DNA of 64,000 nucleotides from Gammaproteobacteria bacterium 13_2_20CM_66_19 (GTDB lineage Bacteria > Pseudomonadota > Gammaproteobacteria > Steroidobacterales > Steroidobacteraceae), in contig MNCZ01000099.1 in assembly GCA_001914695.1 (NCBI GenBank), positions 1 to 64,000 of the forward strand. Reading direction: 5' to 3'. The notes below the pieces were generated by a model that searched no databases, was not told the DNA's origin, and saw only the letters and a list, made by a program, of their open reading frames with translations. This document shows positions 7,174-24,253 of the stretch, piece after piece. How positions within the stretch are numbered: position 1 is the first letter of the stretch; every line of letters starts with the position of its first letter. Made by a program: the position numbers and the translations under genes.

Positions 7174-10005
7174 CTAGGCCGCGCCCAAGGCCTGGCGGCG
7201 CGCCGCCTTGAGCGCCTTGAACCGTCCGGTCGCGGACAGCTCCTCCGCCGCCGCCTGCGCGGTCCACAGTGCAGTGCGCCGCGCGACGAACGGGCTCTTC
7301 GCGAGCTCCTCGAGGGTGCCGGCCTTGGCGAACAGGAACCCCTGACCGGCGACGCACCCGAGCGCGAGAAGCGCCCCGACTTGCGGATCGAGCTCGATCC
7401 CCTCCGCCACCGTATCCAGCCCGAGCGTCTCGCCGAGCGTGATGACCGCGCGCGCAAGCTCCGGACCGTTGTCGGAGCTCGTCAGGCGGCTCACGAACGA
7501 GCGATCGATCTTCAGGATGTCGATCGGGAAGCGGTGCAGGTAGGAGAGCGACGAGTACCCGGTTCCGAAATCGTCGATCGCGAGGCGCACCCCGACCTCC
7601 TTCAGGCGCATGAAGCGCTCGAGATTCGCGTCGGTGTTGTACATGATCGTGCTCTCGGTGAGCTCGATGACGAGATTGCCCGGCTCGAGCCCGGACTCGT
7701 GCAACGCCTGAGCGACATCGCGCTCCAGCTCGCCGTGCTGCAGGTGGCCTCCGGAGATGTTCACCGCGAGCCGCAGCCCGTGCCCCCCGGCGATCGAGGT
7801 GCGCCAGGCGCAGAATTCCCGGCAGGCCTGGCGCAGCACCCAGCGCCCGAGCTTGATGATCTGCCCGCATTCCTCCGCCACCTGGATGAAGCGCGCGGGC
7901 ATCAACACGCCGGCCTCCGGATGCCGCCAGCGAACCAGCGCCTCGACCCCGAGGAGGCTTCGCGTGCCGAGGTCGATGATCGGCTGATACTCGACGAAGA
8001 ACTCCTGGTTGGTGAGCGCCCGGCTGATGTCCGCCTCGAGCCGCATGCGCTCGTGCAGCACATCCTGCATCTGCGGCTGAAAGGTGACATGGCGGTTCTT
8101 GCCCGCCGCCTTGGCGTGGTACATGGCGATGTCCGCCTTGCTGAGCAGCGCCTCGGCGCTCGAGTCCGGAACGGACAGCGCGACGCCGACGCTCGCCGCC
8201 ACCCGCAGCTCGGCGCGATCGAGCTGAAATGGCAGCTCGAGCGCGTCGATCAGCGCGTCGGCCAGATGCTGCACCTCGGCGGCCGTCGCGATCCCCTCCA
8301 CCAGAATCGCAAACTCGTCGCCGCCGAGCCGCGCCACGGTGTCGGACGAGCGCGTGGTCTTCACGATGCGCTGCGCGACCGCCTGCAGCAGCCGGTCGCC
8401 TGCGTCATGGCCGAGGGAATCGTTGATGTTCTTGAAGTTGTCGAGGTCGAGGAACATGACCGCGACCGAGCTGTGGCCGCGCTGGGCGAGGGTCACCGCG
8501 TGCTGCACCCGATCGCGGAACAGGTTGCGATTGGCGAGCAGCGTCAGGGGATCATGGAACGCGAGCTGCCGCAGCTGCTCCTCGAGCGCCTTGCGCTCGC
8601 TGATGTCGCGGAAATTGAGCGCCAGCCCCTCGACCGCCGGATCCTGCATGAGATTGCTGCCGACGCTCTCGATCACGCAGCGCTCGTCCTTGCGCTGAAT
8701 GCGCAACTCGATCGGGCCCACGGTCCCCGAGGGTATGGCGGCGACTTCGTGCAGGAACATGCGCAGTCGCTCGCCGTCCTCCCCGCCCCAGAACTCGGGA
8801 AGGTTCCTGCCGGTGATCTGCTCGGGCCTGAGGCCGAGCGTGCGCTCGGCGGCGGGCGAGGCAAAGCGCACGACCCCGTCCGCGGTGACGATCATGATGA
8901 CGTCGGAGGCGTTGGCGATCAGCGATGCGTAACGCTCTTCGACCAGGCGCGCCGCGCGGCGCTCGCGCACCAGGGCGTCGCCCCGCAGCAGCACGCCCTG
9001 CCGCACCATGAGGAGCAGCATCAGGCCGAAGACGATCATGGTCATGACGGTCGCGGGGCCGGCGACGGCGCCGCGGCTGAAGTACGCCAGCACCAGGAAG
9101 GCGGCCAGCATCGCGGCAAAGGGGAGCGACCGTGCCAGGGTGTCGGACGTGTTCGCCACGGCGCGCACCGGCACCGCGGCGCGGCGTATCTGAGCGCGGC
9201 CGGCGGCGGCGAGCGGCAGATTGCAGGCGAGGTAGAGCACGTCCTGCAGGTCGCCCGGCAGATAGTAGCCGCGCACCTTGGCGAGCGACCAGAGGATGTC
9301 GGCGAGGAACATCGTGGCAAAACCGCCGAGCAGCAGCACCGGCACTTGCCAGCCGCCTTCGCTGCCCGCGCCGGCGAGCAGCACCACCCCGAGCATCAGC
9401 AGCAGGATGCAGTCGAAGGCGAGGTAGGCCTGGCTCAGCGTTTCCTTCAGCAGGCCCAGCTGGACGTGCGCGGCCGCAGGGTGGATCACCAGGAACCAGA
9501 AGAGCGCGCCGAAGCCGACGGTGAATATCGCGGCATCGAGCGACAGCTGGACCCACGGCACGCGCACGGCAGCGGCGCGGATCATGTAGAGCGCCGCGGC
9601 CCCGAGCGTCAGATAGAAGGCGCAGAAGAAGAAGTCGGCGGGACCCGGAAAAGGATCGCGGCCCCGCAGCCACGAGACCGCGCCGATCGCAACACCGACG
9701 AAATAAAGACCCAGCGAGAGGGTAAGCCAGAGCCACGCGCCTCGTAGCGTCCCCCGCGCGGTATGGCGCACCACGGCGTAGGCGAAGACGACGGACGCCA
9801 GCTGAGCCGGCACATCGGAGAGCAGTCCGACGTAATGGGTGACCCGCGGTCCGCCGAGCCCCGTGAGCATCCAGAGACTGCCCGCAACGACGTAGACCGC
9901 GAGAGCGAGCAGGAGTCCGCCAACCCACCGTGGGGTGAGTCGCGGCTCGATCGTTTGTTCGGCGATAACTTCTGTGTCCACGTCGCGTATCTGGGACTGC
10001 CTCAC
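7174..10005 (-). CDS. Membrane-bound PAS-GGDEF-EAL cyclic-di-GMP signalling protein
   Basis: 943 aa; about 8 TM segments, PAS (VEERYASLIANASDVIMIV), ARLGGDEFAILV, GVEALVRWRHP, AIDDFGTGYSSLSYLHRFPIDILKIDRSFV. Confidence 0.95.
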   Translation of the reverse strand: MRQSQIRDVDTEVIAEQTIEPRLTPRWVGGLLLALAVYVVAGSLWMLTGLGGPRVTHYVGLLSDVPAQLASVVFAYAVVRHTARGTLRGAWLWLTLSLGLYFVGVAIGAVSWLRGRDPFPGPADFFFCAFYLTLGAAALYMIRAAAVRVPWVQLSLDAAIFTVGFGALFWFLVIHPAAAHVQLGLLKETLSQAYLAFDCILLLMLGVVLLAGAGSEGGWQVPVLLLGGFATMFLADILWSLAKVRGYYLPGDLQDVLYLACNLPLAAAGRAQIRRAAVPVRAVANTSDTLARSLPFAAMLAAFLVLAYFSRGAVAGPATVMTMIVFGLMLLLMVRQGVLLRGDALVRERRAARLVEERYASLIANASDVIMIVTADGVVRFASPAAERTLGLRPEQITGRNLPEFWGGEDGERLRMFLHEVAAIPSGTVGPIELRIQRKDERCVIESVGSNLMQDPAVEGLALNFRDISERKALEEQLRQLAFHDPLTLLANRNLFRDRVQHAVTLAQRGHSSVAVMFLDLDNFKNINDSLGHDAGDRLLQAVAQRIVKTTRSSDTVARLGGDEFAILVEGIATAAEVQHLADALIDALELPFQLDRAELRVAASVGVALSVPDSSAEALLSKADIAMYHAKAAGKNRHVTFQPQMQDVLHERMRLEADISRALTNQEFFVEYQPIIDLGTRSLLGVEALVRWRHPEAGVLMPARFIQVAEECGQIIKLGRWVLRQACREFCAWRTSIAGGHGLRLAVNISGGHLQHGELERDVAQALHESGLEPGNLVIELTESTIMYNTDANLERFMRLKEVGVRLAIDDFGTGYSSLSYLHRFPIDILKIDRSFVSRLTSSDNGPELARAVITLGETLGLDTVAEGIELDPQVGALLALGCVAGQGFLFAKAGTLEELAKSPFVARRTALWTAQAAAEELSATGRFKALKAARRQALGAA

Positions 10006-10054
10006 CTGCCGACGGGCAGGGCGGACCGCCGACGAGCCGGCCGCCGCAGGGGCG

Positions 10055-10070
10055 AATTTGAGCGCAAATT
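10055..10070. promoter_or_regulatory. Perfect inverted repeat AATTTG-AGCG-CAAATT upstream of the GGDEF/EAL gene
   Basis: Read directly; in the divergent intergenic region 10006-10252. Confidence 0.35.
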
Positions 10071-10252
10071 GCCGGAGCGGCCAGCGACGGAACCCTCCGG
10101 CGTGACGCAGTTCCCGCGGGAGGTGAAGAAGTGTGCGCTGCGTTCACGGCGCGCGTCGCGCCCGGAAGCGCCCGGTGCACGGGCTCGGGCAATTCCCTTC
10201 CGGGGTGCGCCGGCCATAGAATCGGGTGCGGACACGGACCCACGGCGGCACG

Positions 10253-10849
10253 ATGGTGTTTCTTCACGGCTTGCTCGACCGACTGCTGGTGGTGTGCGCG
10301 GTGGTCGCCGGCGGTCTCGTCCCGGGTTTCATTGCGCAGTATCGGCAGCGCCTCGGCGGCCGCCTCGATCAGGCGCGGCTCGACCTCGAGCCCTGGCAGA
10401 GGCTCGCCGACCAGTTCCATCACGGCGATATCCGGACGTTGATCCAATATCATCTGGACAGCGGCGACGCGAAGTTTCACGCCGAGGGCGCCGTGATCCG
10501 CTCGCTGGTCGACACCGTGCACCAGCTGCAGAGCGCCGTCGATGCGCTGCACGGGAGCCTCGTTCGACAGGTCGGGTATCTGCTGCTGCACGCCGACCCA
10601 GATCTGGCGCGCGCGACCTTCAACGACTGGGTGCCGACCTTTGCGCTCTCCGCGGAGGGGATCGTGTTTGCGCTTGCGTTCGCGGCGGTGACCTGGCTCG
10701 TGTTTCAGGGCGCGTGGCGGCTCGCCGCTCTCGCCGGCCAAGGTCTCGCCGGTCGGGCCAGCGCCTCGCCCGACGAACCGATTCCTCAGCCGAGGCGCCT
10801 CAGCCCGGGGGACGGTCGCCCGCGAAACGGATCGCAGTGGCGCCGGTGA
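10253..10849 (+). CDS. DUF2937 family membrane protein
   Basis: LVPGFIAQYRQRLGGRLDQARLDL pattern, central TLIQYHLDS region and C-terminal TM; ATG at 10253. Confidence 0.7.
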   Translation: MVFLHGLLDRLLVVCAVVAGGLVPGFIAQYRQRLGGRLDQARLDLEPWQRLADQFHHGDIRTLIQYHLDSGDAKFHAEGAVIRSLVDTVHQLQSAVDALHGSLVRQVGYLLLHADPDLARATFNDWVPTFALSAEGIVFALAFAAVTWLVFQGAWRLAALAGQGLAGRASASPDEPIPQPRRLSPGDGRPRNGSQWRR

Positions 10850-11492
10850 TAGGACCCACGGTCGCCCGCTCGCTGACGTAGAGCTCGACCTCGCGCTCGA
10901 AACGCAGGTTCCCCTGGACCACCGCGCCGGGGCCGATCACGATACGGGGCTTGCGCGGCCGGCTCGAGGACCCGCCAAACCAGCCACCGGGCTCGTGCAC
11001 GAGAATGCCGCCCTCGACGCGCGACTCCCCGCTGAGGTCGATGTCCCCTCCAACCGTGCTCAGCCCGCCGCCCACGTGGGCGGTCTTGAGGGTGATCTGT
11101 CCGTTGACGTTCTTCAAGCCACCCCCCACATCGGCGCCGCTCTCGAGATCCATCGCGCCGTTCACGGAGGTGACCTCATGGCTCACGTGCGCCCCGGCAC
11201 CGAGCGTGACGTGACCGTTGACCGTGGTCACCGAATCCGCGGTGGCGTGCGCGCCGACATCGATCCCACCGTTCACGGTGCGGGCCGGTCCGACGGTCGC
11301 GCCGTCGTCGATCCGTATGGAGCCGTTGACGGTCCCGACGGCGCCGCTGTGCTGGCCCGCGGGCACATGGATCGAGCCGTTGACCGTGCCGGCCCCGCTC
11401 TCGGTCGCCGTCACGTCCCCGTTGACGCCGTCGCAGGCCGCGACCGCCATCGCCACCACGCCCAGCATGGCGAGCAGGCCATAACGCCACAT
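10800..11492 (-). CDS. Lipoprotein with about 7-8 imperfect 'VNG' repeats (predicted beta-solenoid)
   Basis: Signal peptide and lipobox (MLGVVAMAVAAC); repeated TVNGSIxV...-type units with an 18-19 aa period; Met at 11492. Confidence 0.75.
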   Translation of the reverse strand: MWRYGLLAMLGVVAMAVAACDGVNGDVTATESGAGTVNGSIHVPAGQHSGAVGTVNGSIRIDDGATVGPARTVNGGIDVGAHATADSVTTVNGHVTLGAGAHVSHEVTSVNGAMDLESGADVGGGLKNVNGQITLKTAHVGGGLSTVGGDIDLSGESRVEGGILVHEPGGWFGGSSSRPRKPRIVIGPGAVVQGNLRFEREVELYVSERATVGPITGATAIRFAGDRPPG

Positions 11493-11594
11493 GTTGGTTT
11501 CCTCCTGAGACGTGAGCGGGCCGCGGACTCGGTCAACAGCGCCGGCCAACGGTCCCGGGCCGTGCTGCGAGAGGCGCGATTCTTATTTTACATG

Positions 11595-11660
11595 ACTTCG
11601 GCTCATGACCGGCTTCACTTCGGCTCGCGAACGCCTTCACTTCGGCTCATCAACGGCTTC
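11595..11660. repeat. Three tandem copies of an imperfect 22-bp repeat (ACTTCGGCTCATGACCGGCTTC)
   Basis: Units at 11595-11616, 11617-11638, 11639-11660; about 3-4 mismatches between any two units. Confidence 0.85.
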
Positions 11661-11665
11661 GCGCC

Positions 11666-12238
11666 TTACACGACTTCCGGCAACAGCAGCTCCATCTCGA
11701 TGATGGAGGGAGACGGCTGACCGGCTGCCGGGCGCATCCCGAGACGCTGCGCCAGGCGGAGCATGGGTACGTTGTCCGCGAAAGTGCTCACTGTCACGCG
11801 CACATAGCCGCGGAGCCGCGCGTATTCCAACAGCTGTCTCGCGAGCATCGTGGCAAGGCCGCGGCGCTGCCAGGTGTCGGCGACCGCCACCGAGAGCTCG
11901 CAGCTCAAGCTCCCGGGCGCTGCCGCGTAGCGTGCCACGCCGACGATGCGCTCGGCGCCCCCCTCGCCCGCCAGCGCAACCAAAGCCATCTGCGAGCGGT
12001 AATCGACCCGGACGAGCCGGTCGAGCGCCTCCGGGGAGAGCTCGCGAACCGCGCCCAGAAACCGGTTGTAGCGGGCGCGAGCGCTCAAGCCCGCAAGAAA
12101 TTCACGCTTGAGGTCCCGATCCGAGCCGCGGATCGGGCGAACGCGGCAGCTGCGTCCGCCGGCGAGCGTGAGCGTGGCCCCGTCGTGCACGGTGGCGGGG
12201 TCCGCGCCGTGCCAGCGCGACTGTGGGCTCCTACGCAC
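11666..12238 (-). CDS. GNAT-family N-acetyltransferase (start uncertain)
   Basis: VAVADTWQRRGLATMLARQLLEYARLRGYVRVTVSTFADNVPMLRLAQRLGM. ORF start is GTG at 12238; an internal GTG (VHDGATLTL) is also possible. Confidence 0.82.
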   Translation of the reverse strand: MRRSPQSRWHGADPATVHDGATLTLAGGRSCRVRPIRGSDRDLKREFLAGLSARARYNRFLGAVRELSPEALDRLVRVDYRSQMALVALAGEGGAERIVGVARYAAAPGSLSCELSVAVADTWQRRGLATMLARQLLEYARLRGYVRVTVSTFADNVPMLRLAQRLGMRPAAGQPSPSIIEMELLLPEVV

Positions 12239-13445
12239 TGGGGCCTCCCGATGCAGCCTGCTGCCGCCCCAGCGAGGAGGCGAAGACCGCCAGCCCTAAG
12301 ACCGCGAGCCCTGCCCCCACCCAGCCGGTGGAGGCCCAACCAAAGCCCGCCGTCACGGCGAGGCCGCCGAGCCAGGCGCCGAGCGCATTGGCGATGTTGA
12401 AGGCCGAATGGTTGAGGGCGGCCGCGAGCGTCTGCGCGTCCCCGGCCACGTCCATCAGTCGGGCCTGAAGGGCCGGCACCAGCGCCACCCCGCTCCCGAT
12501 CAGCAACACGGTCGGCACCGCGGCCCAGGCGCTGCGCACCACGACGCTGAAGAGACTCAAGACTAGGATGTTCCAGATCAGCACAGCACCGATCGTGCGC
12601 GTCAGCGACCGGTCCGCCAGCCATGATCCGACCAGGTTGCCGAGAATCATGCCGACGCCCAGGACCGCGAGCACGAGCGGAACCTGACGGGCCTCGAGTC
12701 CCGTGAGCTCGGTGAGAGTCGGCGTGATGTAGCTCACCACGGCGAACAGCCCCCCGAATCCCACCGAACCGACGCCGAGGGTGAGCCAGACCTGCCTGCG
12801 CGCGAGTGCGCCAAGCTCGCGTCGCGGGCTGGCGTCCGCAGCCGCCGGTGCCGGCGGCACCCAGCGCAGGATCAGGAGGCACGTCAGCGCACCGATCGAC
12901 CCCACCAGAGCGAAGCACGCACGCCAGCCGGATGCCTGTCCCACCCAGGTGGCGAGCGGCACCCCGAGGAGGGTCGCGCCGGTGAGCCCCAGCATCATGC
13001 GGCCGATCGCCCGGGTCCGCTCGGCAGCGGGCACCAGCGAGGCGGCGGTGAGCGCCGCCACGCCGAGGTAGGCGCCGTGCGGCACTCCGCTCAGGAATCG
13101 CCACGCGACGAGGGTGCCGTAGTCCGGCGACAGTGCGCTCGCGAAGTTACACCCGGCAAAGCAAGCGGCCAGCGCGATGAGCAGTGCTCTCCTGGGCGCG
13201 CGCGCGGCGAGCATCGCGATCAGCGGGGAGCCGAGCACCACGCCGAGTGCGTAGGCGCTGATCAGGTGCCCGGCGGCCGGCACGGACGCGCCGAGGTCGG
13301 ACGCGACGTCCGGCAGCAGCCCCATGATCGCGAACTCGCCCGTGCCGATGCCGAAGCCACCGAGCCCGAGCGCCAGCTCCGCCCACGCCGATGAGTGTCG
13401 AGGCGCGAGCTCGCGTGCAGCTGCGCCCGGGTCGGCGTCTCTCAC
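12231..13445 (-). CDS. MFS transporter (DHA1/AraJ-like)
   Basis: 404 aa; GIGTGEFAIMGLLPDVASDLG motif typical of the drug/arabinose efflux subfamily. Confidence 0.87.
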   Translation of the reverse strand: MRDADPGAAARELAPRHSSAWAELALGLGGFGIGTGEFAIMGLLPDVASDLGASVPAAGHLISAYALGVVLGSPLIAMLAARAPRRALLIALAACFAGCNFASALSPDYGTLVAWRFLSGVPHGAYLGVAALTAASLVPAAERTRAIGRMMLGLTGATLLGVPLATWVGQASGWRACFALVGSIGALTCLLILRWVPPAPAAADASPRRELGALARRQVWLTLGVGSVGFGGLFAVVSYITPTLTELTGLEARQVPLVLAVLGVGMILGNLVGSWLADRSLTRTIGAVLIWNILVLSLFSVVVRSAWAAVPTVLLIGSGVALVPALQARLMDVAGDAQTLAAALNHSAFNIANALGAWLGGLAVTAGFGWASTGWVGAGLAVLGLAVFASSLGRQQAASGGPSA

Positions 13446-13452
13446 GGTGCCC

Positions 13453-14295
13453 TCAGCCGACCGCCTGGGACGATCGCAGCGGCGTGACGTGGGCGGGCGG
13501 GCCTGCCTCGTCGATCTTCACGCGATCCATGCGCGCTCGTTCCCATCCCTCGAGCGTGAGTCCGCGCAGCTCGAACAAGGCGCGGATTTCGCTCACCGGC
13601 CAGGCGAGCACCTGCTCGAGCAGCGGCACGACGATGCCGAAGGCGTTGTCGCTCAGGACGGTGCTCCGGGCAATCCTCGCGAGCTGTCGGTTTTCCGAAA
13701 CCGCGATGGTGAAGCCGTCGCGGCTGTTCACGTGGAGCATCACGTGCACGTCCGAGCTGCCGTCGCCGACGTAGACGGTGCGGTTGGCTGTCACGCCGAG
13801 TCGCTCCTCGAGCTCTTCCAGCACCGCGACCTTGCCGTAGCCGGCCGGCACCCTCGTGATCGCGCGCACCTCGCCCGACGTCGGGTCGTAATCGAACTCG
13901 GTGCCGTGGATGTGCTCGGGCGGCACGATCCCGGAGAGCGCCGAGACGGCGATCTCCCGCGGGGCCGCCGAGACCACGGCGAAGGAGAACCGGCAGCCCG
14001 TGATGCCCTGCTGCAGGAACTCCATCAGCGCCGCGATCCCGTGGCGCAGGTGTGCACGGCGTCCGGCCTCGATGAGGTGCTCGCGCCGCACGCCGCGAAA
14101 CTCGGGATCGTGGCGGATGAGATAAGCGAGCTCTGCGCCCTGCTGCACGAGGTGGCTCGAGGCGAGGCCCGTGACTTTCTCCTTGAAGGCGCGGACGCCG
14201 AGCAGCTCGGCCAGCACCTCCCCCGAATCATTGAAGCTCAGGGTCTGGTCGAAGTCCGATGCGATCAGGTAATGCCGCAGTGGTGACGGTTTCAA
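13453..14295 (-). CDS. HAD-superfamily phosphatase (HAD-IB/MtnX-like)
   Basis: DFDQTLSF motif I, VVSAAPRE, VYVGDGSSDVHVML motif. The ORF track starts at 14385. I favour the TTG at 14295 because GGAGG lies 5 nt upstream of it. Confidence 0.75.
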   Translation of the reverse strand: MKPSPLRHYLIASDFDQTLSFNDSGEVLAELLGVRAFKEKVTGLASSHLVQQGAELAYLIRHDPEFRGVRREHLIEAGRRAHLRHGIAALMEFLQQGITGCRFSFAVVSAAPREIAVSALSGIVPPEHIHGTEFDYDPTSGEVRAITRVPAGYGKVAVLEELEERLGVTANRTVYVGDGSSDVHVMLHVNSRDGFTIAVSENRQLARIARSTVLSDNAFGIVVPLLEQVLAWPVSEIRALFELRGLTLEGWERARMDRVKIDEAGPPAHVTPLRSSQAVG

Positions 14296-14333
14296 GAGTC
14301 CCTCCTCGAGCACGAGTAGTTGAGTCCCAGGCA

Positions 14334-14351
14334 AAGCTGGTATATCTGCTT
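14334..14351. promoter_or_regulatory. Putative operator O1: AAGCTGGTATATCTGCTT
   Basis: 14/18 self-complementary; 16/18 identical to O2. Confidence 0.6.
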
Positions 14352-14435
14352 TGACAGTTGCGGCAATCCAATGTTCTCCTAGCAAGAAGCACGCCGTCAG
14401 GTAAACATTAGCATATGCATTGAAACAACGCTCTC

Positions 14436-14453
14436 AAGCTGATATATCTACTT
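14436..14453. promoter_or_regulatory. Putative operator O2: AAGCTGATATATCTACTT, within the perfect dyad TCTCAAG-N12-CTTGAGA (14432-14457)
   Basis: 7-bp perfect dyad abutting the regulator ATG at 14458. Confidence 0.65.
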
Positions 14454-14457
14454 GAGA

Positions 14458-15576
14458 ATGCCAGCTCCCGCTTCCCGCTCCATACCGAAGTATTCGCAGG
14501 TTTATTCGGCTCTTAGGCGCGACATCGAGTCGGGCCGCTGGCGCGAGGAGACGAAGCTGCCGAGCGAGGTCGATCTGGTGCGCCAATTCGGGGTGTCACG
14601 CATCACCGTCACCCGCGCCGTGAGGGAGCTGCAGGCGGCCGGGCTGGTGCAGCGGGTCGCCGGATCCGGCACCTTCGTGAAGCGCTCGCGCACCACGCTT
14701 GGGCAGTCCTTCGGTCTTCTGATCCCGGATCTCGGCGAGACCGAGATCTTCGAGCCGATCTGTCAGGGCATGATGGCGTCCCCGCTCGCGCGCGCTCATG
14801 CGCTGGTCTGGGGAAGCGCGGCGACCGAGGCAGCCTCCAATGAGGCGCGCGCGCTGAGCCTGTGCCGGCAATACATCGAGCGCGGCGTGTCGGGCGTGTT
14901 CTTCGCGCCGGTCGAGCTCACGCCCTCCAAGGACGAGGTGAATCGCGGCATCCTGCGCGCGCTCGACGAGGCACGGATCCCGGTCGTGCTGCTCGATCGT
15001 CCGGTCGTGCCCTACCCCCAGAACTCGCAGCATGATCTGGTGGGCATCGACAATCGCCGTGCGGGTTACGTGATCACCGAGCATCTGCTGAATCTCGGCT
15101 GTCGGCGTATCGTCTTCGTCGGCCTTCCGCACGCAGCCGCGACCGTCAATGCGCGCGAGGCCGGGTATCGCGAGGCTCTCTACGCGCACAAGGTGTCCTT
15201 CGGGCGCGCTTCGCTGCAGCGCCTCGATCCCGAGGACGTAACCGCAGTCAGGAAGCTGCTGGAATCGATGCGTCCCGACGGCATCGTGTGCGCCAACGAT
15301 CGCACTGCCGGACGGCTGCTACATTCGATCAGGCAGCTCCGGCACCGCGTGCCCGAGGACATCCGCCTGGTCGGCATCGATGACGTCGAGTACGCGCGGC
15401 TGCTGCCGGTTCCACTCTCGACGCTGCGCCAGCCGACGCATCAGATCGGCGAACTCGCACTCGCGCTCATGCTGGAGCGGATCGCGCGGCCCACCCTGCC
15501 ACCGCGCGAAGTGCGGCTCGGCTGCGAGCTGATCGTGCGCGAGTCCTGCGGCGCCGCGATGGCTCGCGGCCGCTGA
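14458..15576 (+). CDS. GntR-LacI chimeric transcriptional regulator (AraR-like architecture)
   Basis: N-terminal GntR wHTH (YSALRRDIESGRWREETKLPSEVDLVRQFGVSRITVTRAVRELQAAG) followed by LacI/PBP1 effector domain (FGLLIPDLGETEIFEPICQGM...VGIDDVEYARLLPVPLSTLRQPTHQIG). Confidence 0.9.
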   Translation: MPAPASRSIPKYSQVYSALRRDIESGRWREETKLPSEVDLVRQFGVSRITVTRAVRELQAAGLVQRVAGSGTFVKRSRTTLGQSFGLLIPDLGETEIFEPICQGMMASPLARAHALVWGSAATEAASNEARALSLCRQYIERGVSGVFFAPVELTPSKDEVNRGILRALDEARIPVVLLDRPVVPYPQNSQHDLVGIDNRRAGYVITEHLLNLGCRRIVFVGLPHAAATVNAREAGYREALYAHKVSFGRASLQRLDPEDVTAVRKLLESMRPDGIVCANDRTAGRLLHSIRQLRHRVPEDIRLVGIDDVEYARLLPVPLSTLRQPTHQIGELALALMLERIARPTLPPREVRLGCELIVRESCGAAMARGR

Positions 15577-15653
15577 GGCGCGTACCTGGATCCGAAGCGC
15601 GCCGGTGCTACTATTCGCCGCCTTCAGGCAAACCACGCGCGAGCGAGGTGCAT

Positions 15654-17183
15654 ATGGCGCGGGCGGGCGAAGTGGACTCGAGCAGGCGTGAGTTCGTGCA
15701 GAGTGCGGCATCTGTGGTGGCGCTGGCCGCGGCTCCGGTCGCGCTCAGCGCGGCGGGGGGCAGCGAGGCGGACAAGGCGGCGGTGCTGGCGCAGATACCG
15801 GCCATGCACGAGGCGAACGTGAAGCGCCTCCAGGACTGGATCGCGCTGCCCTCGATCGCCGCCGAGAACAGGAATTACCCGCAAGGAGCCGAGTACATGG
15901 CGAAGCTCGCGCGCGAGGCGGGCTTCGCGGGCGTCAAGCTCATACCCACCTCCGGCAAACCCGGAGTGTTCGGCAAGCTCGATGCGGGAGCCCGCACCAC
16001 CGTTGGAATCTACTTCATGTACGACGTGAAGCAGTTCGAGCCCTCCGAATGGAGCTCGCCACCGCTCGAGGCGCGGCTCGTGCGCCGGGAGGGCCTCGGC
16101 ACCGTGTGCATGGGGCGTGGCGCAGTGAATCAGAAGGGTCCGGAGAACTCCTTCCTGAGCGCGTTGCTCGCCTTCAAGGCCGCCGGCCGCAAGCTCCCCG
16201 TGAACCTGGTGCTGGTGTGCGAGGGCGAAGAGGAGATTGCCTCACCGCACTTCCAGGAGCTCACCATGACCCCGGAAGTGCTGGCCGAGCTGCACAAGTG
16301 CTCCGGGGTCTTCATGCCCGAGGCGGGCCAGGATCGCGACGGCGGCGTACTGGTGTCGCTCGGCGCCAAGGGCGTCGTGGAGCTCGAGCTGATCTCGAGC
16401 GGAGAGCGCTGGGGCCGCGGGCCGGCCCACGATGTGCACTCGAGCCTCGAGGCGCAGGTCGATTCCCCGAGCTGGCACCTGGTGCAGGCGCTGAACACTC
16501 TGGTCGGGGCCGATGGTCACACGCCGGCGGTCGACGGCTTCTTCGAGAAGGCGAGGCCCCTCAACCCGGCGCAGGAGCGGATGGTGCGGGAGCGCGCGGC
16601 CAAGACTTCCGAGAACACCGTGAAGAAGACGCTCGGCGTCGAGCGCTGGGTCCACGACTCGAGCTGGGTCGATTCGCTGCTGCGGCTCGAGTCGCAGCCG
16701 ACCATCAACATCGAAGGGCTGGTCGGCGGCTACACGGGTCCGGGGGGCAAGACGGTGCTGCCGCACCGGGCCGTCGCCAAGATCGACATGCGCCTGGTGC
16801 CGGACATGACCGCGAGCGATACCCTCGCCAAGCTGAAGGCGCACCTCGCCAAGCGCGGCTTCGCAGACATCGAGGTCAACATGAGCGGCGGCTACAACCC
16901 GACGCAGACCGACCCCGACAGCAGTTTGATCCGCGCGCAGCTCGCGACCTATCGCAAGCTGGGGCACGATCCGCAGCCGTGGCCGCGCGGCGCGGGCTCC
17001 TGGCCGGGCTATGTCTTCACCGATCCGCCTCTGAGCTTGCCCGCGGGTCACTTCGGCCTGGGCCACGGAACCGGCGCGCACGCGCCGGATGAGTACTACC
17101 TGATCGAATCGGACAACCCGCGGGTTCTGGGCCTCGAGGGTGCGGTGGCATCCTTCGTCGCGTACCTGTACGCGCTCGCCTAG
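15654..17183 (+). CDS. Tat-exported M20-family peptidase-like protein with atypical metal-binding motifs
   Basis: Tat-like SSRREFVQSA signal; CEGEEEIASP and GAHAPDEYYLIE conserved, but IYFMYDVKQ and GRGAVNQKGP differ from canonical GHxDVxP and GRGxxDDKG. Confidence 0.82.
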   Translation: MARAGEVDSSRREFVQSAASVVALAAAPVALSAAGGSEADKAAVLAQIPAMHEANVKRLQDWIALPSIAAENRNYPQGAEYMAKLAREAGFAGVKLIPTSGKPGVFGKLDAGARTTVGIYFMYDVKQFEPSEWSSPPLEARLVRREGLGTVCMGRGAVNQKGPENSFLSALLAFKAAGRKLPVNLVLVCEGEEEIASPHFQELTMTPEVLAELHKCSGVFMPEAGQDRDGGVLVSLGAKGVVELELISSGERWGRGPAHDVHSSLEAQVDSPSWHLVQALNTLVGADGHTPAVDGFFEKARPLNPAQERMVRERAAKTSENTVKKTLGVERWVHDSSWVDSLLRLESQPTINIEGLVGGYTGPGGKTVLPHRAVAKIDMRLVPDMTASDTLAKLKAHLAKRGFADIEVNMSGGYNPTQTDPDSSLIRAQLATYRKLGHDPQPWPRGAGSWPGYVFTDPPLSLPAGHFGLGHGTGAHAPDEYYLIESDNPRVLGLEGAVASFVAYLYALA

Positions 17184-17204
17184 CGCTCGCCAGGCGCGCG
17201 CGAC

Positions 17205-17762
17205 TCAGAACGCATAGCTCAGCGTCACGAAGTCCTGACCCCGGTTCGGAAGCCGGATGCCACCGTTCGACCAGTGGCGTACCGACAGCTCGAGGTCGGA
17301 GCCGCCGTCCGAGAGCCGGACCCGCATGGCGAGCTGCGATGCGAAGTTCCAGTGTGTTGAATTGAGCGAGTCCGCTTGCGTCTTGTAGGAGGCCCCGAAC
17401 CCCAAGAACAGCCGCCAGCGGGATTTGCCGATGAGCCTCCAGCGCCTCGAAGCGGAGACTCCCCAATAGGGCTCGGCGAGCAGCCGGGACACGTGGGGGT
17501 CCGACTCGCCCGCCGTCTGGCGCGTGGCCATCCGGAAGACTCCCAGCTCATAGCGGTCGTGATCGAAGATCAAGGTCGCCGGAATCACCGTGCCTCCCGT
17601 GCCGCCCCAGAAGTGATAGGTGCCGCCGACTCCCAGGCGCAACTCACAGCCATCGCACGGCAGCAGGCTCTGCGCCGCGCCTGCACGCGACACCGCGCCG
17701 AGCAGACCTCCGATGATCAGAACCCCGGCTAAGCTCAGCCACTTTGCTGGTACCTCCCTCAT
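17205..17762 (-). CDS. PagL-like lipid A 3-O-deacylase / acyloxyacyl hydrolase family outer-membrane protein
   Basis: Signal peptide, small beta-barrel, catalytic-type motif RHWSNGGIRLPNRGQDFVTLSYAF (HxSN) with terminal Phe; Met at 17762. Confidence 0.78.
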   Translation of the reverse strand: MREVPAKWLSLAGVLIIGGLLGAVSRAGAAQSLLPCDGCELRLGVGGTYHFWGGTGGTVIPATLIFDHDRYELGVFRMATRQTAGESDPHVSRLLAEPYWGVSASRRWRLIGKSRWRLFLGFGASYKTQADSLNSTHWNFASQLAMRVRLSDGGSDLELSVRHWSNGGIRLPNRGQDFVTLSYAF

Positions 17763-17838
17763 CGCACACCTCGACGACCTGCGGGCCTCCTCGAGAGACC
17801 GCGTGTAAAAAGCTAGTCGCGTTGCAGTGCGTTTCGCA

Positions 17839-17908
17839 TCATGAGTTGCGGGGAGCTCGCGATCCTGCTTTGGCGGGGAGGCCGAGCTACCCCTTTGGGG
17901 GTCATGAG
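17839..17908. other. Compact multi-hairpin intergenic element flanked by TCATGAG repeats (structured RNA or small REP/MITE-like element)
   Basis: Outer stem AGCTCG/CGAGCT, inner CCTGC-TTTG-GCGGG, adjacent ACCCC-TTTG-GGGGT; TCATGAG at 17839-17845 and 17902-17908. Confidence 0.5.
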
Positions 17909-18077
17909 AGCAGCCGTGCCCACTCGAGCCCGGCGGCGGCGTCCAGTGCGTTCCGGTGACCGACCAGCGGCGCCGCCCAACCCCGACCATTGATCAGACA
18001 CCGTGCTACTTCCAGACGGCGCGCACATGTGGGAGCATCCGCTGCAGCAGACGCGAATCGCCCGTAACCACACAACT

Positions 18078-18869
18078 ATGCGCAGCCCGAGGGTCTCCGC
18101 GTTGCTTGCAGCAGCGCTGCTCTTGATACCCCTGCAGCGGGCGCTGGCCGACACGCGCTATGTCTGGAGTGACGCCTCCGGCGACGAGCAAGTCACTCGC
18201 GAGCCGCCTCCCCAGGGCATCGTCTATTCACGCATCAGCATCCCGGACGCCATCTCGTGGCGTCGTCGGCCTGAGATGCCCAAGGCGTTCACCCCGAAGA
18301 CACCCCCTTCGACCCAGGAGCTGTTCAATCAGGCAGCGAGTTCGATCTACTGGGTCGAGAGCATCGAGGGCGACAAGCTCAATTCGGAGCGAATTACCCA
18401 TTACGGCTCGGCCGTCGCCATTTCGGACGAACTGGCGCTGACCAATTGCCACGTCACACGCGGGAGCGGCGCTCAGCTCACGATCGGCGCCGGCAGAACC
18501 GACGAGACCGGTGAAGCGGAGCTCGAGGCCGCCGATTTTGATGCCGACCGCTGCGTCATTCGTAGCCGCACGCTGCGCCTGCAGGCGGTCAAGGGCATCC
18601 GGCCCTACGATAACCTGGAGATCGGTGAGACGGTCTACACGATCGGCAATCCGCGGCGGCTGGAGCGCACCCTCGGTAACGGCCTGGTCTCGGGCAAGCG
18701 AGAGCTCCAAGGCGAGCGCTGGATTCAATTCACAGCGCCGATCTCTCGCGGTTCATCCGGCGGCGGACTGTTCGACGCGCAGGGGAATCTTATCGGTATC
18801 ACCTCGCTGTCCATGCGCGACGCGCAGGGTATCAACTTCGCGATCCCCGCCGAAGAATTCTGGAAGTAA
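18078..18869 (+). CDS. Secreted trypsin-like serine protease (S1 fold), DUF4124-like N-terminus
   Basis: Signal peptide; LTNCHVT (His), DADRCVI (Asp), SRGSSGGGLFD (Ser); GITSLSMRDAQGINFAIPAEEF. Confidence 0.85.
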   Translation: MRSPRVSALLAAALLLIPLQRALADTRYVWSDASGDEQVTREPPPQGIVYSRISIPDAISWRRRPEMPKAFTPKTPPSTQELFNQAASSIYWVESIEGDKLNSERITHYGSAVAISDELALTNCHVTRGSGAQLTIGAGRTDETGEAELEAADFDADRCVIRSRTLRLQAVKGIRPYDNLEIGETVYTIGNPRRLERTLGNGLVSGKRELQGERWIQFTAPISRGSSGGGLFDAQGNLIGITSLSMRDAQGINFAIPAEEFWK

Positions 18870-18878
18870 CCGACAGCC

Positions 18879-19844
18879 GTGCGCATCGGCTTCATCGGAC
18901 TCGGCAACGTCGGTAGCCAGCTGGCCGGCAACCTGCTGCGTCACGGCATCGACCTGACGGTGCGCGACGTCGACCCGGAGCGGGTCGCGGCGCTCGTCGC
19001 GCGCGGCGCGCGGGCGGCGGACTCCCCGCGAGAGCTCGCCGCGGGCGTCGGGCTCGTGATCACGTGCCTGCCCTCCCCGGCCGTATCCGCGCAGGTCATG
19101 GAGCGGCCCGACGGCGTGCTCGCCGGGCTCGCGCGGGGCAAGATCTGGCTCGAGATGAGCACTACCGACCCCGCCGAGGCGCGCCGCCTGGCCGCCCGCG
19201 TCGAGGAGCGCGGCGCGATCGCCATGGACTGTCCGGTGTCCGGCGGCTGCCACCGCGCCGCCACGGGCAACATCTCGATCTTCGCCGGCGGCTCGCGCGA
19301 GGCCTTCGAGCGGGTGCTGCCGGTGCTCGCGATTCTCGGCCAGCGGATCCTGCACACCGGCCCCGTGGGCTCGGCTTCCATGCTCAAGGTCCTCACCAAC
19401 TATCTCTGCACGGTGCATCTCGCCGCGCTCGCCGAGGCGCTCACGGTCGCGAAGGTCTCAGGTCTCGACCTGAACACGACCTACGAGGGCATCCGTATCT
19501 CCTCCGGAAACTCCTTCGTGCACGAGACCGAGTCGCAGGTCATCCTGAACGGCAGCCGCGACATCAACTTCACCATGGACCTGGTGATCAAGGACGTGGG
19601 ACTGTTCGATGAGCTGGCCCGCGCTCACGGAGTGCCCCTCGAGCTGTCGCCGCTGGTGCTCGGCGTGTTCAGGGACGGCGCGCGCCGCTACGGCGAGCGC
19701 GAGCTCTCGCCCAATATCATCCGCCGCCTCGAGGAGGCCTGCGGGGTGCGGGTGCTGGGCGAGGGCTTCCCCCCGCAGATCGTCGACACCGAGCCCAAGG
19801 TTCCCGGCTACGAGGTGGTGCCGCGGCGCGGCCCGGCGCCGTGA
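18879..19844 (+). CDS. 3-hydroxyisobutyrate dehydrogenase-family NAD(P)-dependent oxidoreductase
   Basis: GFIGLGNVGSQLAGNL Rossmann motif, DCPVSGG, KVLTNYL catalytic Lys/Asn; GTG start. Confidence 0.9.
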   Translation: MRIGFIGLGNVGSQLAGNLLRHGIDLTVRDVDPERVAALVARGARAADSPRELAAGVGLVITCLPSPAVSAQVMERPDGVLAGLARGKIWLEMSTTDPAEARRLAARVEERGAIAMDCPVSGGCHRAATGNISIFAGGSREAFERVLPVLAILGQRILHTGPVGSASMLKVLTNYLCTVHLAALAEALTVAKVSGLDLNTTYEGIRISSGNSFVHETESQVILNGSRDINFTMDLVIKDVGLFDELARAHGVPLELSPLVLGVFRDGARRYGERELSPNIIRRLEEACGVRVLGEGFPPQIVDTEPKVPGYEVVPRRGPAP

Positions 19845-21277
19845 ACGGCACGCTCATCGAGAAGCGCTCGATCGACTACGTGCCGCTCGCCGAAAGGCAC
19901 GGCAAGGTCTGGCATCTCTGGCCGGTCTGGTTCTCGGGGGATGCGCATCTGGCGACCCTCGCGGTGGGCGTGCTCGGCATCAGTCTCGGGGGGAATCTGC
20001 TCTGGACCGCGGTGGCGGTGGTGGCGGGCTGCCTTCTCGGCACCTTCTTCATGGCGTTCCACTCGACCCAGGGGCCGCAACTGGGGCTCCCTCAGATGAT
20101 CCAGTCGCGGCCGCAGTTCGGCTACAGCGGGGCGCTGCTGGTCTGGGGAGTGGCCATGATCGCCTACGTGGGCTACAACGCCTTCAACCAGGTGCTGGCC
20201 GCGCAGGCGCTGCACCAGCTGAACGGCTCGATCTCCCCCACCTCCCCCACGGCCATCGTGCTCATCGCGCTCGGTGCGGTGGCCCTCGCGGCGCTCGGCT
20301 ACGACAAGATCCACGCGGCGCAGCGGGGTTTCGCTTACCTGATGATCGTGATCCTCACGGTGTTCTCGGTCGGGGCGTTGTTCACGCTCTCTTTTCCGGC
20401 GGTGCAGTGGGACCCCGCGGGCTTTCGCGGAGTGCCGTTCCTCGCGCAGCTCTTCGCCGCCGCCTCCTACCAGCTCAGCTGGTCGATCTACGTGTCGGAC
20501 TACTCGCGCTATCTGCCACGCGACGTCGGGGTGCGGGCATCGTTCTGGTGGACCTATCTCGGGGCTTTCGTAGGGGGCGCCTGGATGATGCTGGTCGGCA
20601 CCGTCGCGGCCGCGGCCGCCCCCAGGCTCGACGTCGCCGCCGCCATGGAGCATGCGGCGGATGCGGTGCTCCCGGGGCTCGGTAGGGTGCTGCTCGTGGG
20701 AGCGCTCCTCGGACTCGTCACGATCTCGGCGCTCAACTTCTACGGCGCCTCGCTGACGCTCCTGAGCTGCGCCGACACGGTGAAGCCGCTGCGTTGCACG
20801 GCCGTGAAGCGCCTCGTGAGTCTCGCCGTCGCATTCGTGGCGAGCAACGCGATCGCCCTCTCCTCCTCCAGCAACTTCGTCAACCGCTTCGAGGACCTGC
20901 TCGCCGTGCTCCTTTATCTCTTCACGCCCTGGACGGCGATCAACCTGGTCGACTTCTATCTCGTGCGCAAGGGCCACTACTCGATTCGCGAGATCTTCAA
21001 TCCCGCCGGCATGTACGGCCGTTGGAACTGGCGCGGGCTCACCGCCTACCTCGTGGGCTTCGCGGTCATGATTCCCTTCTTCAGCTCGGGCCTCTACACC
21101 GGGCCCATCGCCCGTGCCCTCGGCGGCGCCGATATCGCGATGCTGGTGGGGCTGCCGGTCGCCGCCGGTGTCTATCTGCTCGTCTGCCGCTCGCTCGACC
21201 TCAAGCTCGACGCGCGGCGCGCCGCCGCCGCGGACGTCGGGCTCGAGCCGGGCGCGCCGAGTGCACAGACCGCGTAA
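19841..21277 (+). CDS. NCS1-family (purine/cytosine permease-like) transporter
   Basis: 478 aa, 12 TM; GNLLWTAVAVVAGCLLGTFFMAFHSTQGPQLGLPQMIQSRPQFGYSGA; 4-bp overlap with the upstream gene. Confidence 0.88.
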   Translation: MNGTLIEKRSIDYVPLAERHGKVWHLWPVWFSGDAHLATLAVGVLGISLGGNLLWTAVAVVAGCLLGTFFMAFHSTQGPQLGLPQMIQSRPQFGYSGALLVWGVAMIAYVGYNAFNQVLAAQALHQLNGSISPTSPTAIVLIALGAVALAALGYDKIHAAQRGFAYLMIVILTVFSVGALFTLSFPAVQWDPAGFRGVPFLAQLFAAASYQLSWSIYVSDYSRYLPRDVGVRASFWWTYLGAFVGGAWMMLVGTVAAAAAPRLDVAAAMEHAADAVLPGLGRVLLVGALLGLVTISALNFYGASLTLLSCADTVKPLRCTAVKRLVSLAVAFVASNAIALSSSSNFVNRFEDLLAVLLYLFTPWTAINLVDFYLVRKGHYSIREIFNPAGMYGRWNWRGLTAYLVGFAVMIPFFSSGLYTGPIARALGGADIAMLVGLPVAAGVYLLVCRSLDLKLDARRAAAADVGLEPGAPSAQTA

Positions 21278-21296
21278 TTGCCAGTAGCATCGACCC

Positions 21297-21935
21297 ATGC
21301 CCAAGGTCGTCGATCACGCGCAGCGCCGGGACGAGATCGCACTCGTCGCCTGCCGGGTGGTGGCCCAGCACGGTTTCGACGGGGCGAGCATGGTGCGTAT
21401 CGCGCACGAGGCCGGCTATACCACCGGCATGCTGGCGCACTACTTCGACACCAAGCAGGACATCATCATCGCCGCACTGCGGCTCATTCTGCGGCGCATC
21501 GAGGAGCGCCTCACCCAGCCGGCGGCGCGGGGCGGGCGGCCGGATCTGCTCGCGCTCCTCACGGAGGCGCTGCCCCTCGACGAGCACCGGCGCACCGAGT
21601 GCGCGTTCTGGACCACCTTCTGGGGACAGGTCAGCACCGACAAGCGGCTGAAGCGCATCAACGCCTGGGTGCACCGCGAGTACCTGCGTCTCTTCGAGCG
21701 CTGCCTCGCGCAGTGCTGGCCGGAGTGGGCACAGTGGCCCGCGGCGAAGCGTGACTACGTGCTGCGCTCGCTCGTCACCTTCATCAACGGACTCACCGCG
21801 AGCGCCGTGGCCAACCGCGGCGACTGGCCGCCTGAGCTTCAGGTCGAGCAGTTGCGGCTGCAGCTGCAGCTGTTGCGCGCCTGGGCGACGGGCACGGCCG
21901 GCGCGCCGCTCGCACAGCAGGCGGCGGGCGCTTAG
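21297..21935 (+). CDS. TetR/AcrR (BetI-like) transcriptional regulator
   Basis: RRDEIALVACRVVAQHGFDGASMVRIAHEAGYTTGMLAHYFDTKQDII. Confidence 0.88.
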   Translation: MPKVVDHAQRRDEIALVACRVVAQHGFDGASMVRIAHEAGYTTGMLAHYFDTKQDIIIAALRLILRRIEERLTQPAARGGRPDLLALLTEALPLDEHRRTECAFWTTFWGQVSTDKRLKRINAWVHREYLRLFERCLAQCWPEWAQWPAAKRDYVLRSLVTFINGLTASAVANRGDWPPELQVEQLRLQLQLLRAWATGTAGAPLAQQAAGA

Positions 21936-21961
21936 GGCTTGCGGCCGGCCGCGGGCGGCGT

Positions 21962-22603
21962 TCACCGCTCGCGTGTCACGCCGACAGGCAGAACGTCCGC
22001 GGCGCGCATCTCGGGATCCGCGAAGGCCTCGGGACGGTTCAAGTACTCGAGCGCCATGTCGACGGCGTCGTGGCCCCAGAAGAGCTCCTCGCCGATCACC
22101 AGCGTCGGCACGCCGAAGACGCCGCGCGAGATCGCCCAATCCGTGTTCGCGCGCAGCCGCTCCTTCACCGCCGGATCGGCAATGGCCGCCTGCGGATTCG
22201 TGACTCCGAGCAGGGGCGCAAGATCGGCGATGACCGCGGGATCGCTGACGTCCCGGCCGTCCCGGAACACGGCATCGAGCACGGTCCCCGCGGCACGGCG
22301 ATCGCCGCCGGCTGCAATGATGAGACGCAACGCCGAGAGCGGGTTGAACGGGTGGGCCGGCGGCATGCGCATCGGGATCGCCATGCTCCGAGCGCGCCAT
22401 ATGACGAAGCGATAGGTGAAGCGGCGCTTGGACGGAATCTCCGCAGGCCCCGCCTGCCCGAAATGCTTGAGCAACCCGGCCAGCAGGACCGGTACGCACT
22501 CGAGCTGCACGTGGGGCGGCAGCTCCACGAGGCGCGGGAAGGCGAGGTACGCAAAGGGCGAGATGACGTCGAATACCCAGGAGACCTTCACGGCTTGACT
22601 CAC
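21962..22603 (-). CDS. DsbA-fold 2-hydroxychromene-2-carboxylate isomerase family protein
   Basis: VFDVISPFAYLAFPRL..., GVFGVPTLVIGEELFWGHDAVDMALEYL. Confidence 0.87.
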   Translation of the reverse strand: MSQAVKVSWVFDVISPFAYLAFPRLVELPPHVQLECVPVLLAGLLKHFGQAGPAEIPSKRRFTYRFVIWRARSMAIPMRMPPAHPFNPLSALRLIIAAGGDRRAAGTVLDAVFRDGRDVSDPAVIADLAPLLGVTNPQAAIADPAVKERLRANTDWAISRGVFGVPTLVIGEELFWGHDAVDMALEYLNRPEAFADPEMRAADVLPVGVTRER

Positions 22604-22624
22604 CCTCGGGCTCCGCGCGCAGCT

Positions 22625-23491
22625 TCAGCTCATGAACTCGATCTCGACCCCCGGGGGCGCGGGCGAGGTGCGGTCCACGAAAAGATCTCCGAGCAGCACC
22701 GCGCCCGGCTCGACGCTGTAGCGGGCGAAGTCGCGCACGCCCGCCTCGGCGAGCACGCTGTCGTCGATGAAGAAATGTCCGGTGCACTCGCGCGCCGGCC
22801 TGTTGAGGATGACGTGAGCGGCATCGGCCACGATCTCGGGCTTGCGCGAGCGGCTCATCATGGCAGCGCCACCGAGCGCAAACTCCACGGCCGCGGTTGC
22901 GATCGTCGTCCGTGGCCACAGCGCGTTGCAGGCGATGCCGTCCGCGCGGTACTGCTCCGCGAGTCCGAGCATGCACAGCGACATCCCATACTTCGAGAGC
23001 GAATAGGCCAGGTGCCCCGCGAACCACTTGGGTCGCAGATCGAGCGGCGGCGAGAGCGTCAGGATGTGCGGATTCCGCGCCCGCTTCAGGTGAGGCAGGC
23101 AGGCGCGCGAGGTGACGAAAGTGCCGCGGGTGTTGATCTGCTGGATGAGATCGTAGCGGCGCATGTCGATCTGCTCGGTGGAGGCGAGATTGATCGCCGA
23201 GGCGTTGTTGATGCAGATGTCGATGCCGCCGAACGTGCGCGCGCATTGGCGCACCGCCTCCGCCACGCTCGCCTCGTCGCGCACGTCGACCACGAGCGGC
23301 AATGCCTTGCCCCCCGCCTGCTCGATCTCCCGCGCGGCGCTATGGATCGTGCCCGGGAGCTTCGGATGCGGCTCGGCGGTCTTCGCCGCGATCGCGACGT
23401 TCGCCCCATCGCGTGCCGCCCGCAGCGCAATCGCGAGCCCGATTCCGCGGCTGGCGCCGGTAATAAAGAGTGTCTTGCCGGCGAGGCTCAC
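22625..23491 (-). CDS. Short-chain dehydrogenase/reductase
   Basis: TGASRGIGLAIALRAARDGA, INNASAI, AYSLSKYGMSL (YxxxK). Confidence 0.9.
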   Translation of the reverse strand: MSLAGKTLFITGASRGIGLAIALRAARDGANVAIAAKTAEPHPKLPGTIHSAAREIEQAGGKALPLVVDVRDEASVAEAVRQCARTFGGIDICINNASAINLASTEQIDMRRYDLIQQINTRGTFVTSRACLPHLKRARNPHILTLSPPLDLRPKWFAGHLAYSLSKYGMSLCMLGLAEQYRADGIACNALWPRTTIATAAVEFALGGAAMMSRSRKPEIVADAAHVILNRPARECTGHFFIDDSVLAEAGVRDFARYSVEPGAVLLGDLFVDRTSPAPPGVEIEFMS

Positions 23492-23904
23492 CGTTCCCGT
23501 GCCCCCTTCACCTCGATCCGATTGCCGTCAGGGTCCTCGATATAGAATGAGCGTCCCTGGCCCTCGGCGCCGTAACGCGCCGCCGGATCGATGACGCCGA
23601 CGCCGCGGGAGGCAAACCACGACGCGAGCTCCGGCTCGTTGAACGGCGCGAGCGCGAGACAAAAGTGCTCCACATTGGGTACTCCGGCGCGCGAGCCGGC
23701 GGCGGGGCGGCCGAGGGGACCGTCGAGCGTCACGAGGTCGATGAGGCTCCGTCCGGCCCGCAGCTGCGTGAGGCCGAGCTCGGGCTGCTCGCGCTCCACG
23801 CGACAGCCGAGGACGTCGCGGTAGAACGCCAGCGCCCGGGGGAGCTCGCGCACCCGCAGCACGATGTGATCGATGCCTTGAACCACGAACGGCGGCTCGG
23901 ACAT
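23488..23904 (-). CDS. VOC (glyoxalase/extradiol-fold) protein
   Basis: GIDHIVLRVRELPRALAFYRDVLG ... SFYIEDPDGNRIEVKG; 138 aa, 4-bp overlap with SDR. Confidence 0.88.
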   Translation of the reverse strand: MSEPPFVVQGIDHIVLRVRELPRALAFYRDVLGCRVEREQPELGLTQLRAGRSLIDLVTLDGPLGRPAAGSRAGVPNVEHFCLALAPFNEPELASWFASRGVGVIDPAARYGAEGQGRSFYIEDPDGNRIEVKGARER

Positions 23905-23914
23905 CCGGCAGCTC

Positions 23915-24253
23915 CTACGGCTTGCCGGAGTAGTTGCCGTCCAGGTAGTCGAGGATCTGCCTGGCTTCCTCGTCGGTGAGCGGACCGCCGAAGCGATCCC
24001 TCATCTTCTGAACTTCCTTTTGCCACACGGCCCGGTTCATGGCCGGCGCGTTGCTCGGTATGTAATCGAGGCTGTGACAGATGTTGCAGCGACCCTCGGT
24101 CAGCTCGCGCCCGGGAGCATCCTTCAGCCGCACGGTCTCCTCCTTGAGCTGAGCGGGTACCAGCGGCTCCGCCGCCCCTAGCCAGCCGCCGGCGCCACCT
24201 AGCACGAGCGCCGCCGTGGCCAGTGCGGGCAAGCGGGCGAGCGCGACCTTCAC
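23915..24253 (-). CDS. c-type cytochrome, SorB-like sulfite dehydrogenase subunit
   Basis: Signal peptide, CNICH heme motif, SNAPAMNRAVWQKEVQKM; 4-bp overlap with sorA-like gene. Confidence 0.8.
   Translation of the reverse strand: MKVALARLPALATAALVLGGAGGWLGAAEPLVPAQLKEETVRLKDAPGRELTEGRCNICHSLDYIPSNAPAMNRAVWQKEVQKMRDRFGGPLTDEEARQILDYLDGNYSGKP

Follow-up and report, generated by a model that had tools for sequence, protein, structure and literature searches.

A GntR-LacI chimeric regulator and a HAD-IB phosphatase are encoded divergently in the window, the whole 64,000-nucleotide stretch analyzed here. We consider it likely that the two palindromes lying between them, O1 and O2, are the operators of this chimera, that the protein occludes its own promoter and the divergent HAD promoter separately, and that the regulator mRNA is leaderless or nearly so. 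The chimera and the phosphatase appear to form a dedicated local divergon, because the motif is conserved, the operator is missing from same-genus HAD genes that have no such regulator, and only two sites were found in the genome. For a group of GntR-LacI chimeras that occurs in Acidobacteriota, Gemmatimonadota, Verrucomicrobiota, and Gammaproteobacteria, mostly uncultured, the comparison predicts the operator sequence, autoregulation, and one probable target, the HAD-IB phosphatase. The mechanism would be that of an ordinary autoregulated bacterial divergon; the comparative evidence is unusually clean. In the literature, we found no paper on this regulator–HAD pair and no description of this chimera group.

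In the proposed switch, the regulator, whose GntR winged helix is of the AraR/HutC type and whose effector domain is LacI-type, would bind both O1 and O2, presumably as a dimer. O2 would cover the regulator's core promoter, and at the divergent phosphatase gene O1 would cover either the promoter or the leader. Ligand-free regulator would keep RNA polymerase off each promoter independently and so repress both genes. A ligand, probably sugar-like, would release the regulator, and phosphatase and regulator levels would rise together.

The palindromes and the genes around them

The features of the region are collected in Table 1. O1 and O2 are identical at 16 of 18 positions, are each self-complementary at 14 of 18, and start 102 bp apart. 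O2 lies within an extended dyad with perfect arms, TCTCAAG (14432-14438) and CTTGAGA (14451-14457) separated by 12 nt, which abuts the regulator ATG at 14458. The preliminary description had set out this geometry, coordinates included, correctly to the base. With up to 3 mismatches allowed, chance alone would give 0.01 matches in 64 kb; the window yields 4 strand-matches, corresponding to 2 sites. Leave-group-out PWM scores are 19.5 for O1 and 22.7 for O2, and none of 13,032 background positions scores as high as either.

Table 1. Coordinates of genes, predicted operators, and candidate promoters in the window
Feature	Position	Strand	Basis or remark
MFS exporter, AraJ/Cmx type	12231-13445	-	Directly downstream of the HAD gene
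HAD-IB phosphatase, 280 aa	13453-14295	-	PF12710, HAD-IB match, fold search
O1, HAD-proximal predicted operator, AAGCTGGTATATCTGCTT	14334-14351	.	Sequence and leave-group-out PWM
Candidate HAD promoter at O1: TTGCCG, 16 nt, TATACC	14334-14372	-	-10 would lie inside O1; weak, position uncertain
Alternative HAD promoter: TTGAGA, 16 nt, TATGCT	14410-14437	-	-35 would lie in the O2 dyad; consensus match only
Candidate regulator promoter: TTGAAA (14420-14425), 17 nt, TATATC (14443-14448)	14420-14448	+	Putative, read from sequence
Extended window-specific dyad TCTCAAG-N12-CTTGAGA around O2	14432-14457	.	Read from sequence
O2, regulator-proximal predicted operator, AAGCTGATATATCTACTT	14436-14453	.	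4 nt before the regulator ATG
GntR-LacI chimeric regulator, 372 aa	14458-15576	+	PF00392 and PF13377 matches
M20 peptidase	15648-17183	+	Twin-arginine-like N-terminus (SSRREFVQSAASVVALAAA); 71 bp past the regulator stop

A genome-wide motif scan, proposed in the preliminary description, was carried out as a pattern search of the 3.1-Mb host assembly (about 83% complete) and returned O1 and O2 as the sole matches. With a relaxed family consensus, the next best sites in the assembly had 3 mismatches and were outnumbered by those in the reversed control. We rejected a wider regulon for the host genome: neither the pattern nor the relaxed consensus gave further sites.

The regulator carries an N-terminal GntR winged helix (PF00392 at residues 11-74, E 1.5e-21) and a C-terminal LacI-type sensor domain (PF13377, Peripla_BP_3, at residues 207-364, E 1.9e-32); by these domain matches, it has both architectural elements of AraR-type GntR-LacI chimeras. 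The chain ends about 8 aa past the last LacI-type match, with no visible C-terminal extension or tetramer tail.

The most likely HAD start codon is the TTG at 14295, which follows a strong GAGGAGGG Shine-Dalgarno at 14300-14307 (-12.3 kcal/mol), rather than the TTG at 14385 given by the mechanical ORF call. The HAD-IB motifs (DxD, S/T, K, and a GDxxxD-type motif) are all present, and the catalytic residues D14, D16, S109, K155, D178, and D182 are invariant in 8 orthologues. The predicted fold (model pLDDT 76) matches the phosphoserine phosphatase SerB and MtnX; a PDB sequence search with the HAD protein gave no match.

Co-transcription of the M20 peptidase gene with the regulator is a possibility, but an unsupported one. 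The preliminary description had suggested that the circuit might extend to this gene; we rejected it as a member, given that M20 adjoins no other regulator copy and carries no operator of its own. On the other side of the divergon, the Verrucomicrobium loci have an apparent MFS transporter, recognized by eye, at the same place as the window MFS gene, to which it has no blastp match.

Conservation and linkage with the regulator

Orthologous regulators were gathered from the contig collection and from genomes of the window's genus. In the regulator tree, in which the branch of L004 was disregarded, the window protein falls in a twelve-member clade (support 97/95) whose members come from Acidobacteriota, Gemmatimonadota, Verrucomicrobiota, the window, and a second Gammaproteobacterial MAG. 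When palindromes were sought de novo in the 11 related loci, with the window left out, the same motif emerged, AAGYTGWTATAWCARCTT; it is palindromic with G-N6-C, and several sites show GT-N4-AC. Leave-group-out matrices place the top sites in the intergenic region upstream of the regulator in 12/12 loci, with one or two sites per locus; these outscore all of the 8,000 to 24,000 background positions used per group. In all, 29 operator sites were seen vs 1.7 expected in shuffles. L042 has a single clear site, L033 has the regulator and one site without an adjoining HAD gene, and L004, a same-genus orthologue whose contig ends there, keeps the core GATATATCAT at the start codon. The preliminary description had staked its reading on the sites being conserved in relatives with the same regulator, and conserved they are.

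The relatives keep the 18-bp core, and the 26-bp extended dyad with its TCTC/GAGA flanks is specific to the window. Given that this dyad adjoins the start codon, O2 might be read as an RNA hairpin, acting in leader or ribosome-binding-site control, and no DNA operator. We find this scarcely credible: the other gene has a second copy, relatives do not keep the outer arms and often have a broken right half (such as TATCATTTA), and transcription is expected to start at the site or downstream of it.

In 5 loci (L036, L037, L039, L041, and L043), a weaker second operator copy lies 22-23 bp from the distal HAD-side site. These copies have leave-group-out scores of 6-10 and partly coincide with a TTGAC -35 box. 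Their offset is about two helical turns, the spacing known for cooperative LacI-family sites (PMC4052901).

The HAD gene is divergent to the regulator in 9 of the 11 other clade loci; of the remaining two, L035 ends at the contig end and L033 lacks the HAD gene. The HAD gene with a divergent regulator is a conserved neighborhood in Acidobacteriota, Gemmatimonadota, Verrucomicrobiota, and the window, and beyond HAD no neighbor is widely common to the related regulator loci. The HAD tree is compatible with a single origin of the regulator–HAD pairing, weakly supported (58/34).

Within the window's genus, 22 of the 36 other genomes carry the HAD gene, and a close regulator orthologue occurs only in G034. 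Upstream of 15 same-genus HAD genes without the regulator (66-75% identical), the operator is absent: the best score is 6.5 and most are below 5, where the same scoring gives 20.9 and 23.3 in the window. By this comparison, operator and regulator go together. Because the palindromes are found with the repressor beside the phosphatase and are missing where the phosphatase lacks the repressor, they are very probably this repressor's sites. Proximity by itself does not name the binding protein, and the palindromes could in principle be operators of another regulator sharing the region. There is only a slim chance of this, as the sites accompany this regulator in several phyla and are absent from those 15 HAD genes, the motif symmetry and G..C spacing are those of HutC/AraR-type sites (PMC4494728), and some sister regulators carry related variants upstream of their own starts. 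With conservation where the regulator is present and absence where it is not, the earlier claims of operators, autoregulation, and control of the divergent HAD gene hold as predictions; those of looping and M20 control do not stand.

The same-genus HAD genes without the regulator (L119-L133) often have another promoter-like block upstream, roughly TTCGCTTGATTGC, a short spacer, then TTTTGCTAA(C/G)GTG, which is absent from the window. The closest Gammaproteobacterial relative outside the genus (L033:4875-5865) has an upstream ORF resembling, by eye, a PIN-domain protein (YVDTSILGAYYCPE).

Spacing, promoters, and the regulator start

Two strong, near-identical sites within one intergenic region invite a model of loop repression, the one put forward in the preliminary description, in which a regulator tetramer or two interacting dimers bridge O1 and O2 and one complex shuts both promoters. 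AraR, itself a GntR-LacI chimera, forms a small loop on promoters with two in-phase boxes; the AraR promoter itself carries just one (PMC4218819). However, AraR looping requires in-phase, properly spaced operators (PMC4218819), and the 102 bp of the window correspond to 9.7 turns, which is not in phase. In relatives, the operators are 23, 56, 57, 90, 112, 124, 145, 153, and 154 bp apart. Across 10 loci, integral turns are not favored (mean cosine -0.33 at 10.5 bp/turn). The inter-site distance grows with intergenic length (r = 0.92, n = 9, p 5e-4, a p value made optimistic by the relatedness of the loci); the direction of this trend is clear. In a survey of the GntR family, the distance between jointly acting double sites stays constant, whereas operon-specific ones diverge as the intergenic region grows (PMC4494728).

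Looping is thus unsupported, because spacing varies, has no common helical phase, and tracks intergenic length. The spacing of looped two-operator repression, in phase or at constant distance, was sought and not found (23-154 bp), and the regulator has no visible tetramer tail past its LacI-type core, although contacts of other kinds may occur. We regard the loop as improbable. The better model appears to be occlusion of the promoters, with a regulator mRNA that has little or no leader.

For occlusion, the position of O2 is central. The O2-equivalent site ends 3 nt before the start codon in 7 loci, 4 nt in the window, and 5 nt in L042, and its center lies 12.5-13.5 nt from the regulator start in 7/9 loci; in the same set, O1 lies 20-70 nt from the HAD start. 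As an exception to this fixed distance, the L004 site is nearer the ATG than a leaderless start allows; in two Verrucomicrobium loci, the site is 34-60 nt before the first in-frame start. None of the nine regulator starts with a close O2 has a Shine-Dalgarno (anti-SD pairing +0.6 to +1.7 kcal/mol). Most HAD starts do have one (-3.3 to -12.3 kcal/mol; random 22-mers average -2.8). Because O2 is so near the start codon and a Shine-Dalgarno is lacking, the regulator mRNA probably has no leader or almost none.

In the window, the candidate -10 TATATC falls inside O2, 15 bp before the ATG, and from TTGAAA-N17-TATATC, the likely promoter, the regulator RNA would start near 14455-14458. In L034, L035, L038, L039, and L040, the right operator half reads TATCAT instead of the palindromic TATCAG/A, creating a TANNNT-type box that starts 12 bp before the start codon. 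Such a box at this distance is a published mark of leaderless bacterial genes (PMC3160421). Several relatives resemble these genes in box position and in lacking a Shine-Dalgarno; they differ in that the box is also a predicted repressor operator. The window match is weaker: O2 reads TATATC/TATCTA, with no exact TANNNT. A bolder proposal is a cross-phylum divergon in which a leaderless repressor gene has the repressor's operator itself for its core promoter, with one set of bases serving as -10, half-site, and start-codon spacer, kept 3-5 nt from the start codon. We advance it tentatively, at somewhat less than an even chance.

The HAD promoter in the window has two weak candidates, neither firmly placed. 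On the HAD strand of several relatives, TTGAC(A/G) lies upstream of the distal site.

Relation to known regulators

The arrangement most resembles the operon-specific double-site divergons of the GntR family (PMC4494728). As there, the regulator is divergent from a structural gene, two palindromes each lie near their own gene, and the inter-site distance grows with intergenic length (here r = 0.92); both hallmarks, a site near each gene and growth of the distance, are found. That survey concerns FadR and HutC regulators, whereas the window regulator has a LacI-type sensor and its own AT-rich core, TATATA.

AraR of Bacillus subtilis shares the domain architecture and palindromic boxes, and its structure 4EGY is the closest solved DNA-binding domain by sequence (E 6.5e-12). 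Its recognition-helix R41, which contacts G, aligns with the Arg of SRITV in the window regulator. Where AraR has SRHTIRKA, the window protein has SRITVTRA, so that the second Arg of AraR (R45) is replaced by Thr; most relatives have Gly at this position. The AraR box, At(T/A)tGTaCGTAcaa(A/T)T (PMC4218819), differs from AAGYTGWTATAWCARCTT. AraR controls arabinose genes, whereas the neighbors here are the HAD phosphatase, MFS, and M20 genes, with no further operator in the genome; arabinose regulation is not indicated.

NagR/YvoA, HutC-type GntR repressors, are alike in the winged helix (4U0Y, E 2.5e-11) and in a GT-N4-AC style palindrome; HutC-type sites are G-N6-C / GT-N4-AC palindromes (PMC4494728). 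HutC proteins differ in their UbiC-like sensor domain, the window regulator having a LacI-type one.

A single motif for all sister clades was tried and rejected: a convincing palindrome was found only in clade A and, as the variant CTGTANTATCAG, in part of B1/B2. Clades D, E, and F gave low-quality matches only and were dropped. The sister regulators L044, L046, L047, L049, L050, and L056 carry this variant near their own start codons, and they have Q or N after SR(I/L/V)TV, where others have G or T. The search in clade C gave a looser TGTCTATACA-like motif. In L051, L054, L055, and L067, a further Acidobacteriota clade of chimeras, the TGTCTATACA-like palindromes are closer to the HutC consensus.
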